Source of the DNA: Humisphaera borealis
Lineage (GTDB): Bacteria > Planctomycetota > Phycisphaerae > Tepidisphaerales > Tepidisphaeraceae
NCBI RefSeq assembly: GCF_015169395.1
Contig: NZ_CP063458.1
Location: 1,426,001 to 1,490,000, forward strand
Direction of reading: 5' to 3'
Length of the DNA stretch: 64,000 nucleotides
In this document: one piece after another, positions 3,600-23,529 of the stretch
Numbering within the stretch: position 1 is the stretch's first letter
Layout of the letters: the number at the start of each line of letters is the position of its first letter
Notes under the pieces: generated by a model
What the model was told of the DNA's origin: nothing
The model's input: only the letters and a program-made list of their open reading frames with translations
Databases searched by the model: none
Translations under genes and position numbers: made by a program

Positions 3600-3668
3600 C
3601 TTTTAGAGCTTGGTTTCGAGATCACCGCCGCTCGTCCCTTTCGTCCGAGAGAACTTTCACGATTACGA

Positions 3669-3714
3669 GCTGCCCTCCGTGTCACCGTGCCTCCGTGGTG
3701 AACTCTCCCGCATT
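3669..3714. repeat. Solitary arm of the CCTCCGTG repeat family, upstream of the HerA-like gene
   Basis: This stretch (CTGCCCTCCGTG...CCGTGCCTCCGTGGTGAACTC...CCGCATTC) closely matches the right arm and right flank of the inverted-repeat element inside priA at 22073-22234. Only one arm is present here. It ends about 40 bases before the ATG of the next gene and is open in that gene's frame, so an annotation that picks the earliest start (3610) would wrongly add repeat-derived residues to the protein. Confidence 0.75.
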
Positions 3715-13461: not shown

Positions 13462-14044
13462 TCAACATCCTTGCGCTAAGGTGACACCCCGAACAGGCGA
13501 GCCGGATCAACGGCGCGGTCCCTTTGTTCAGTTGGACGCGAGAATACTCGCAGCACTTGCCGCAAAAAAGAAGCGGCGCGCCCCAGTGCTACGAATTGAT
13601 GAAGGCTGATGTTCGGCGTTCACGGCGGAACCGTTCAGCCCTGCTTTCCGGTGGGGCAGGCATTCTTGCCTGCCGCGAGCCCGCGATGCCGGCATTCCTG
13701 CCGGCCTGAGCGGGATCGCAGCCGGACGCCGACACACACTGCTTCGCATGACCTCAACCGGGCAAGAATGCCCGGCACTCGGTCATGCGAGGCAGGCAGG
13801 AATGCCTGCCCCACCTTGCGAAACGACCCTGAACGTTCACGTCGCAATTCGCGGTGACGCAGCCGTGATGAACGCCAAGACTCAGAGACGCCAAGGTCGC
13901 GATCCAAGGCAGTGCAACTCTTGGCTTCTCAGCGCCGTCGCGTTCAATCCTGAAACGAGAGGGAGCTTTCATCATCTTGGTATTGGAGCCAGCGTCCTTG
14001 TGATGAACTCCGTCTCTTTTCTCTGCCGGATATCGAACTGTTCT
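13462..14044. other. Gene-free, palindrome-rich interval
   Basis: 583 bases between the desaturase start and the end of the beta-helix gene. The centre holds the composite palindrome at 13650-13815. Near 13868-13910 is another repeat-like string (GAACGCCAAGACTCAGAGACGCC). Several short frames cross the interval on both strands, but they are built from the repeats and none looks like a real protein. Confidence 0.6.
13650..13815. repeat. Composite palindromic element, GGTGGGGCAGGCATTC type
   Basis: The outer arms (13650-13674 and 13791-13815) are inverted copies of 25 nt with one mismatch. Inside are two more short perfect hairpins with the same design: 13688-13705 (GCCGGCA/TTCC/TGCCGGC) and 13758-13775 (CCGGGCA/AGAA/TGCCCGG). 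All carry the core CATTCYTGCC or its complement. It lies fully between genes, and no transposase is present. Confidence 0.8.
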
Positions 14045-20928: not shown

Positions 20929-23529
20929 TCAAAGCAACGACACCGGGTTGACGTCCACCGCAATGCGCTCGGACTTGTTCAGCAGGCCTCGCGCCCGTAC
21001 CGAGGCGAGAACTCGCTGCAGCGGAGTGGCCGCCGGGCTCTGCAATACGATCTGGTGTCGGAAGTAACCGGCGATTCGCCCGACCGCGCAAGGCATCGGC
21101 CCCTTGATCTGCACGTTGGTTCCCGCGGCAGCGATCGCCAGTTCGCCGGCCAGTTCCTCGGCGGTCTGCTGCACCTTGTCGGCCTCCTCGTCCCGCAGCA
21201 CGATCCGCGCCATTCTTGCGAACGGCGGCAGGCCCACTTCCTTTCGGCTGATCAGTTCCCGCTCGGCAAATCCCACATAATCCTGCTTGATCGCAGCCTG
21301 GATCGTCGGATCGTCGGGCAGAAACGTTTGCAGAATGACACGACCGGGCAGATCGCCGCGTCCTGCCCGGCCGGCGACCTGGGTGATGAGCTGGAAGGTC
21401 CGCTCGGCGGCGCGGAAATCGGGCAGAGCCAGCGCCGTGTCGCCGCTGATCACGCCGACGAGCGTGACGTTCGGATAGTCGAGCCCCTTGGCGATCATCT
21501 GGGTGCCGAGCATCACCTGGATCTCTTTGCGGCCGAACTTGCCCAGTAGTTCTTCATAGTCTTTTGCCGAGCGCATGGTGTCGCTGTCCACGCGGGCGAA
21601 CTTGATGTCGGGGAACTTCCGCTGCATCTCTTCTTCCACCCGCTGCGTACCAAGCCCGAACAGGCTCAGCAGCTTGCCGCATTCAGGGCACTGCGTGGGT
21701 AGCGTGTTGACCGCCAGGCAGTAGTGGCAGTGCAACTGCCCGGCGTGTGCCGACGCCATTATCTTCGCGCTCAGCGTGTGTTCACCCGTCGAGCGGTGAT
21801 ACGTCATCGTCTTGTCGCAGTACTTGCAGGTGACGACGTGCTGGCAACTGGGGCAGTGCACATAGTTCGAGTACCCGCGCCGGTTCAGCAGCAGGATCGC
21901 CTGGTGCCCCTGGGCGACCGTGTTCGTCAGCATGTACTCCAGCCGCTGGCTGAACAGGTTCACGCCGCGACGCATCCTCATTTCCTGCTTCATGTCGATG
22001 ACCTCGACGTGAGGAAGCGAAAGTCCGCGAACCCGGCGCGGGAGGGAGAGGAGGTGGTAGTTCGAAGACGAAGAATCACCACGGAGGCACGGAGGCACGG
22101 AGGGCAACTCGACGGATGACGACTTTGCCCCTGCGGCGACTCGGCTCTGATCAATCTGTTTTAGATCGTGGCGTTGCGAATGGTCGGCGGAATTACGGGT
22201 TGCCCTCCGTGCCTCCGTGCCTCCGTGGTGATTCTCCGCATTCCCGGCCGTCGCTTCACGCCGGACGCGCTCATACATCTCCAATGAAGGCGTCGCGCTT
22301 CCGAGCAGGATCGGCACCTTTTCGAGTTGCGCCCGTTTTACCGCGACGTCGCGGCCGTGGTACCGGGGCAACTGGTCCTGCTTGTAGCTCGATTCGTGCT
22401 CCTCATCGACGACGATCATCCCCAGGTTCGGCACCGGAGCGAAAATCGCCGACCGCGCTCCCACGATGACCTGCGCCTGGCCGGTGGCGATCTGCTGCCA
22501 GTACTTGTGCCGCGTTCCGGCGCTCAGGCCGCTGTGGAGGATGGCGACCTTGCCGAACCGCGCGACAAACCGTCGGGCCGTCTGCGGCGTCAGTGCTATT
22601 TCGGGAACGAGCACGATCGCCTGACGACCCTGCGCCAATACCCGCTCGATGCATTGCAGGTAGACCTCCGTCTTGCCGCTGCCGGTGACGCCCATCAGCA
22701 GGTTCACCGAAAACCCGGCCGAAGGGGACGGCTGTGTAGACCCGTCCACCCCCGCCGGTGGCGACAGCCTGGGGAGTATGTCATCGAAGACCTTCTGCTG
22801 GTCCTCGTTGAGCGCGATAGATACTTCCGTCGCCGGCACCACAAGCGTGTCGGCAGTCATTCCCGGCAGATCGACCTCGGCTTTAAGCGAAATCCAACCC
22901 AGACCGGCAAGCTTGCGGACGGTGTTGGGCTTAACGCCCGCTTCCTTGGCCAACCGAAGGAGTTCGACCGAATGTCCCGGCTCCAGTTGCAGCAGCCTTG
23001 CCAGCACGGCCCGGCGTTTGGGTGCCTTGGCCTTCTCCAAAAACGCCTGCACTTCTTCACGCGGCTTGGCCAGTTGAACGAACGTGATGTACCCCACCCC
23101 GGTCCGCTTCTTGACCGCCGAGGGGATAATGCATTCCAGCACCAAGCCCAGCGGGGCGATGTAATACCGGCTCATCCAGCAGGCCAATTCCATCAGCGTG
23201 GGCGGGATGAGCACACGTTTGTCATCGATCCCCAGCAGCGGCTTGATCTTGGACGGGTCGCGATAGTCGGTCGTCGGCTTGATCGCGGTGACGTAGCCGA
23301 AATTGGGTTTGTTTCCGCGTCCCAGCGGTACGCGGACGCGCTGGCCCACGACCACGCTGCCGACGAGCGTTTTCGGGATCGCATAGTCGAGGGCGCGGTC
23401 GACACTCTTTTCGATCGCAACTGCCGCGAAAGGGCCCTCCGCGGCTGTAGGCAGAGCCCGTGCCGGAAGTTGTGCCGGCTGATCGAAGACGCCGAAGAGA
23501 TTGGGAGTGTCGGAGGTCGATCCATCCAT
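20929..23529 (-). CDS. priA: Primosomal protein N' (replication restart helicase PriA)
   Basis: A 3'-to-5' DNA helicase that reloads replication at stalled forks. At 866 residues it is longer than the 732 of E. coli PriA. The N-terminal DNA-binding part is followed by Walker A GVTGSGKTEVYL, the DEEH box in VVDEEHESSYKQDQLPRYHGRD, and SATPSLEMYERV. Then comes an unusual segment of about 55 residues (432-486) encoded by an inverted-repeat element. Downstream are LPHVEVIDM, the zinc-binding cysteines (CPSC, CKYC, CHYC, CPEC), GTQMIAKGLDYPNVTLVGV and QVAGRAGRGDLPG. The zinc region also has about 14 more residues than usual between its second and third cysteine pairs. Stop and start frames are clean, so the gene is probably functional. 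Confidence 0.95.
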   Translation of the reverse strand: MDGSTSDTPNLFGVFDQPAQLPARALPTAAEGPFAAVAIEKSVDRALDYAIPKTLVGSVVVGQRVRVPLGRGNKPNFGYVTAIKPTTDYRDPSKIKPLLGIDDKRVLIPPTLMELACWMSRYYIAPLGLVLECIIPSAVKKRTGVGYITFVQLAKPREEVQAFLEKAKAPKRRAVLARLLQLEPGHSVELLRLAKEAGVKPNTVRKLAGLGWISLKAEVDLPGMTADTLVVPATEVSIALNEDQQKVFDDILPRLSPPAGVDGSTQPSPSAGFSVNLLMGVTGSGKTEVYLQCIERVLAQGRQAIVLVPEIALTPQTARRFVARFGKVAILHSGLSAGTRHKYWQQIATGQAQVIVGARSAIFAPVPNLGMIVVDEEHESSYKQDQLPRYHGRDVAVKRAQLEKVPILLGSATPSLEMYERVRREATAGNAENHHGGTEARRATRNSADHSQRHDLKQIDQSRVAAGAKSSSVELPSVPPCLRGDSSSSNYHLLSLPRRVRGLSLPHVEVIDMKQEMRMRRGVNLFSQRLEYMLTNTVAQGHQAILLLNRRGYSNYVHCPSCQHVVTCKYCDKTMTYHRSTGEHTLSAKIMASAHAGQLHCHYCLAVNTLPTQCPECGKLLSLFGLGTQRVEEEMQRKFPDIKFARVDSDTMRSAKDYEELLGKFGRKEIQVMLGTQMIAKGLDYPNVTLVGVISGDTALALPDFRAAERTFQLITQVAGRAGRGDLPGRVILQTFLPDDPTIQAAIKQDYVGFAERELISRKEVGLPPFARMARIVLRDEEADKVQQTAEELAGELAIAAAGTNVQIKGPMPCAVGRIAGYFRHQIVLQSPAATPLQRVLASVRARGLLNKSERIAVDVNPVSLL
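22073..22234. repeat. Inverted-repeat element inserted in frame in priA
   Basis: The two ends (22073-22108 and 22199-22234) are perfect 36-nt inverted copies of each other, each with two CACGGAGG-type units (GGAGGCACGGAGGCACGGAG). The 90-base middle shows no repeat of its own. The whole is 162 bases, exactly 54 codons, and is open in the priA frame; it encodes HHGGTEARR at one end and PSVPPCLRG at the other. A lone arm of the same family lies at 3669-3714. It has the structure of a small non-autonomous mobile or REP-like element. Confidence 0.85.

Follow-up and report, generated by a model that had tools for sequence, protein, structure and literature searches.

The essential replication-restart gene priA of Humisphaera borealis, which from its sequence appears to be a working helicase gene, carries a dispersed palindromic repeat in frame, as had been proposed when the region was first read. 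We consider it likely that a member of a hairpin family inserted into the linker between the two helicase lobes of PriA and is translated as a disordered loop of ~55–65 residues on a functional helicase. The gene lies at 20929–23529 on the minus strand of the window, the 64,000-nt stretch of DNA analysed here, and its frame runs uninterrupted by stops for 866 aa, including through the element. The left arm (22072–22108, plus strand) is a 37-nt perfect complement of the right arm (22199–22235, minus strand), which is its inverted copy, and the pair forms the longest perfect inverted repeat inside priA. The first-pass annotation was right about perfect inverted arms, which measure 37 rather than 36 nt and sit one base away from where it placed them. 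Each arm is built from three tandem copies of the octamer CACGGAGG followed by GCAAC. When the arms are extended to 48 nt (22064–22111 and 22196–22243), 44 of 48 positions are complementary; the element thus measures 164–180 bp and, with extended arms, occupies 22064–22243 (unstranded). Its 90-nt interior (22109–22198, minus strand) has no stops in the priA frame, and the whole element is free of stops in two of the six frames, one of which is that of priA. Base composition predicts ~4e-14 perfect 36-nt inverted repeats with arms at most 500 nt apart in the window, so a pair like that in priA is not expected there by chance. RNA of the coding strand has a folding energy of −111 kcal/mol, with z = −10.4 relative to dinucleotide shuffles. 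An Rfam search of the element gave nothing beyond a sub-threshold miRNA-hairpin match, which we judged spurious.

PriA is the best named match of the 866-aa product. The insert is flanked in the protein by SATPSLEMYERV on one side and NYHLLSLPRRV on the other, and alignment to PriA in the PDB is interrupted at residues 424 and 490. Measured from SATPSLE to NRRG, this segment spans 131 aa in H. borealis, against a median of 67 aa in 49 distant PriA proteins (linker-length controls from a PriA scan of GTDB contigs, which returned distant relatives only) and 65–79 in those family members where no repeat is visible. The difference amounts to ~55–65 extra residues, which agrees with the ~55 first estimated at a point where other PriA proteins have a short link. 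Alignment also bore out the expectation that related Phycisphaerae would lack the insert: it is absent from other PriA proteins of the family and class, except for relatives with unrelated repeats of their own, and distant PriA do not share the segment. We did not find PriA in G001, the only congener, whose assembly is 65% complete. Long linkers in several relatives might hint that the segment is an ancient domain of PriA, palindromic at the DNA level by coincidence. We give this idea next to no credence, because linker sequences are unrelated between genera, match the dispersed repeats of each genome and have no counterpart in distant PriA.

The protein around the insert looks intact. Catalytic and zinc-ligand residues are kept on either side in an alignment of 28 PriA proteins, the H. 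borealis sequence conserves the invariant ATPase motif residues and Cys pairs, and identity to relatives is ~60–70% on both sides. An AlphaFold2 model (pTM 0.75) is folded except for residues 435–487, where pLDDT falls below 50, and its top structural matches in the PDB are all PriA. The model thus gives residues 435–487 as a predicted disordered loop on a PriA fold. A large insertion in an ATPase could instead have inactivated priA and left the gene decaying. Against such decay stand the single intact frame, the conserved motifs and flanking identity, the presence of inserts in several relatives too and the fact that this is the only full-length PriA in the genome; we regard it as very improbable.

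To place the element in its genome, we searched the complete 7.19-Mb sequence with a 19-nt arm pattern. Allowing at most 2 mismatches, we obtained 95 matches at ~61 sites, whereas the reversed arm pattern used as a control gave 2. The ends of the element therefore do belong to a dispersed repeat, as suspected, and an absence of arm copies elsewhere, which would have counted against the proposal, did not occur. The conserved portion of the family is the arm, with a consensus of approximately ATCACCACGGAGGCACGGAGACACGGAGGGCAACTCGA; its non-tandem GGGCAACTCG portion is likewise common to other genomic sites. Interiors vary between copies in this genome, some of them holding other repeats. Because interiors are not conserved and tandem-octamer arms can expand, we considered whether the palindrome arose in situ, with no element having moved, through template switching and slippage of octamers within a linker that was long to begin with. 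In this family the PriA linker does run longer and vary more, and in the relative G005 a genome pattern search found a heptamer repeat nowhere but in the PriA linker, for which reason we rejected it as a dispersed family. An in situ origin nevertheless seems unlikely to us, as the arm, including its non-tandem portion, is common to ~60 other genomic sites, so that the arms, at the least, must be copies of sequence from other places. Under the insertion we favour, an element of inverted tandem-octamer arms around a variable interior would have moved into the PriA linker as a unit and been co-transcribed and co-translated with priA, adding its ~55–65 residues. It would have been retained because the linker tolerates it and because it is open in the priA frame, presumably as a neutral passenger of no benefit. 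Neither a target-site duplication nor a mobility enzyme or transposase was found for the element.

Genes at the arm-bearing loci were called with a simple codon-usage model trained on those loci. On this basis, 37 of 39 paired elements are intergenic and priA, where the element is in frame, holds the only clear in-gene copy; the remaining, doubtful pair, L090, lies at a predicted gene's 3′ end. The role of in-frame protein spacer, proposed for the family in the first-pass annotation, is thus not typical of the family itself (one clear case among 39 pairs) and is typical of other repeat families in relatives. Of the 37 intergenic copies, 30 lie closer to the 3′ end of a gene than to any 5′ end, often 13–45 nt past the stop codon, which suggests that the CACGGAGG elements of this genome are 3′UTR hairpins, unlike the in-gene habit of the family in G002. 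Across L031–L090 these elements mostly sit 13–45 nt 3′ of stop codons, with purine-rich outer flanks. We dismissed the idea that the priA element is unusually open, since at least one open frame is present in 28 of 37 intergenic copies. Elsewhere in the window lie an intergenic orphan arm of the same family (3666–3701, minus strand), without a nearby partner, and, at 13650–13815 between predicted genes, a further palindrome whose arms (GGTGGGGCAGGCATTCTTGCC) are 28 nt long. An 864-kb sample of the genome contains 38 long palindromes of every kind. Three of the 38 are in genes, and all three are in frame: in priA, in shikimate dehydrogenase and in a farnesyl-diphosphate-synthase-like gene. The latter two (L186:16426-16519 and L209:7165-7257) belong to other repeat families.

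We then turned to relatives, most of them represented by fragmented assemblies, with repeat pattern searches covering 26 family genomes. In three more genera the PriA linker contains dispersed palindromes of unrelated sequence, each particular to one genome or genus. Those of G002 and of G023, which belong to one genus, have an outer octamer, GGACGCGG, and an inner heptamer, TGCAAAT; G021 has a palindrome of the heptamer GGGTATC; and G022 has one of GTGTGCCACCGGCGGCTTG. Matches to GGACGCGG number 61 in G002 and 42 in G023, those to GGGTATC 42 in G021 and those to the repeat of G022 19 in that genome. In the majority of the other family genomes the linker-repeat patterns match not at all, or once or twice; the TGCAAAT pattern is abundant in G021 as well. 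The PriA linker of L227 is long, yet no evident palindrome was seen there. Since these families were found via PriA, PriA itself is ascertained, which leaves the in-gene fraction of their other copies unaffected. In-gene sites, all in frame, make up 14 of the 19 around the G002 arms and 8 of the 20 examined for G021, and in G022 PriA is the only clear in-gene case. Profile matches are split by repeats in genes for conserved enzymes: MTA phosphorylase, MqnE (aminofutalosine synthase), MqnC, MiaB, a DEAD-box helicase, a PseB/CapD-type dehydratase, a TIGR00275 flavoprotein, homoserine dehydrogenase, leucyl aminopeptidase and FeoB, and the family profiles of the split enzymes match on either side of the repeat. 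One loop has been struck in MqnE of G002 and G023, by another palindrome in MqnE of G021, and in the paralogue MqnC of G021. The loci with different repeats in this one loop are L366 and L147 (G021), L358 (G002) and L354 (G023). In MqnE of G019 and G020 the two flanking match segments directly adjoin across a short loop, and the repeat is therefore absent there. The arms of the elements encode a periodic peptide, and interiors of the G002 copies are similar to one another, unlike those of the H. borealis family. These bacteria appear to keep gaining hairpin repeats in frame in housekeeping proteins.

Length changes between the sister species G002 and G023 bear on whether such inserts are translated. 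Gaps between the two PriA genes are 3, 93, 45, 12 and 30, and those between the MqnE genes are 3, 21, 3, 12 and 3; ten of ten are multiples of three, and no stop was gained in either. In MTAP, whose interior aligns ambiguously, two of four gaps are divisible by three, although overall the length differs by −15. Because length changed solely in multiples of three, the in-gene repeats of PriA and MqnE in these two species are probably translated. From its open frame and these cousins, we infer that the window's own priA element is translated as well. The hairpin might alternatively be removed by RNase III excision or skipped by ribosome bypass, leaving PriA without the insert or as two associating pieces. 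It is highly stable at −111 kcal/mol, the site between the two helicase lobes is a plausible split point, and RNase III is known to excise 23S intervening sequences (IVSs) that have terminal repeats, heptamers and S23p (PMC4990558). RNA ends left by RNase III cutting are, however, not rejoined. In-gene elements lack stops and are in frame, and the frame-keeping gaps of PriA and MqnE speak against both routes, as neither would demand multiples of three. We consider removal or skipping quite unlikely, and translation of the inserted element the better account.

In G021, one GGGTATC element brackets an ORF for a four-helix-bundle protein (TIGR02436, the S23/IVS protein family), and we therefore examined TIGR02436 genes across the class. 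At least one is present in 230 of 298 genomes. An inverted repeat scoring at least 14 surrounds the gene at 49 of 60 loci, with spans mostly of 410–620 nt, compared with none among 121 small genes and two among 117 random windows drawn from the same loci as controls. Among arms that are clearly periodic (match of at least 0.7), the period is 7 in 25 cases and 8 in 7. The Phycisphaerae genes at L293–L352 lie mostly between inverted repeats of such 7-/8-nt tandem units. At L310, in the family member G025, the flanking arms (GGCACGGAGGCACGAAGGCACGAAGG) belong to the octamer family of the window's element. H. borealis itself has a heptamer family that brackets a TIGR02436 gene at L298. A short palindrome of this family, L210:790-880, has no such gene, and at L045:568-657 the same family forms ~13 tandem heptamers, TACTGCC. 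None of the fetched copies of the H. borealis CACGGAGG elements, the priA copy included, holds a four-helix-bundle gene. We infer that the element in priA belongs to the IVS-type class as a member lacking the ORF, and its class would descend from, or share a mobility system with, IVS-type S23 (TIGR02436) elements. Short copies would then be ORF-less derivatives of elements encoding the four-helix bundle. Still more broadly, and with slightly less than even confidence, we propose that a widespread class of mobile Phycisphaerae IVS-type elements, with 7-/8-nt arm units and, when complete, a four-helix-bundle protein, spreads both intergenically and into genes, where ORF-less derivatives are kept in frame as new disordered loops of essential enzymes, repeatedly at the same permissive sites. 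If true, this would unite rRNA intervening sequences and coding palindromes of the Rickettsia type as one kind of element.

Comparison with known repeat classes narrows the initial description of the element as REP/MITE-like. A REP unit is itself a 20–40-bp palindrome with a GTAG or CGTC tag. The elements here resemble REP/BIME/REPIN sequences (RAYT transposase) in being inverted pairs of short repeats that are mostly intergenic. Their arms, however, are octamer tandems that carry neither a GTAG nor a CGTC tag and do not form palindromes on their own, a structure that rules out REP membership, and, unlike REP/BIME/REPIN, similar elements in relatives have in-frame coding copies. MITEs have terminal inverted repeats around a conserved interior, a target duplication and a related transposase. 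The priA element shares the inverted repeats, but its family has no conserved interior and we identified neither target duplication nor transposase, so that MITE fits only loosely and REP not at all. Cyanobacterial short tandemly repeated repeats (STRR) are dispersed, lineage-specific tandem heptamers, and may resemble the present elements in these traits.

Rickettsia palindromic elements (RPEs) are dispersed ~150-bp palindromic repeats of several families, found in frame in unrelated genes and also outside genes (PMC10969869). By behaviour these are closest to the window's element, a 164–180-bp palindrome with 95 arm matches that is in frame in the conserved gene priA; in G002 and G021 a good number of conserved genes hold in-frame repeats. 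In contrast to RPEs, the present elements occur in another phylum, have arms of tandem 7- or 8-nt units, form genus-specific families and have longer relatives that bracket a four-helix-bundle gene, and interiors in the priA-element family are not conserved. By the anatomy of the full-length relatives, the nearest counterparts are rRNA intervening sequences. The 428-nt IVS of Coxiella 23S rRNA has terminal repeats and three tandem heptamers beside an S23p ORF, and is excised by RNase III (PMC4990558). Likewise, long terminal inverted repeats form a stem here, and full-form relatives of ~430–470 nt have tandem heptamers near an S23 ORF. These elements differ from the 23S IVS in lying in intergenic regions and protein genes, the window's copy being in priA and without an ORF. 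We file the element as a member of neither group. Our best reading is an RPE-like, IVS-related palindromic element, presumably mobile, that sits in frame in a permissive inter-lobe loop.

In-frame coding palindromes have been described as unusually frequent in Rickettsia, and the same process elsewhere has been called conceivable (PMC10969869). They appear here in planctomycetes, where earlier descriptions outside the open-access literature are possible. Different families strike the same PriA and MqnE loops in different genera, and the frame is kept during later change. The link to palindromes also places the unexplained four-helix-bundle (S23/IVS) protein in a setting that can be tested, namely a hairpin element that lies outside rRNA. 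For annotation, HHGGTEARR or GTRGRGDAG residues in conserved proteins should be treated with caution, as they derive from repeats. One further idea concerned unit length: 7- and 8-nt units do read alike in all three frames and might have been favoured for it. We rejected such coding selection, because at GC 0.62 some 63–68% of random 7-/8-nt units have no stop in any of the six frames, and units of the CAGTAAG type contain stops.
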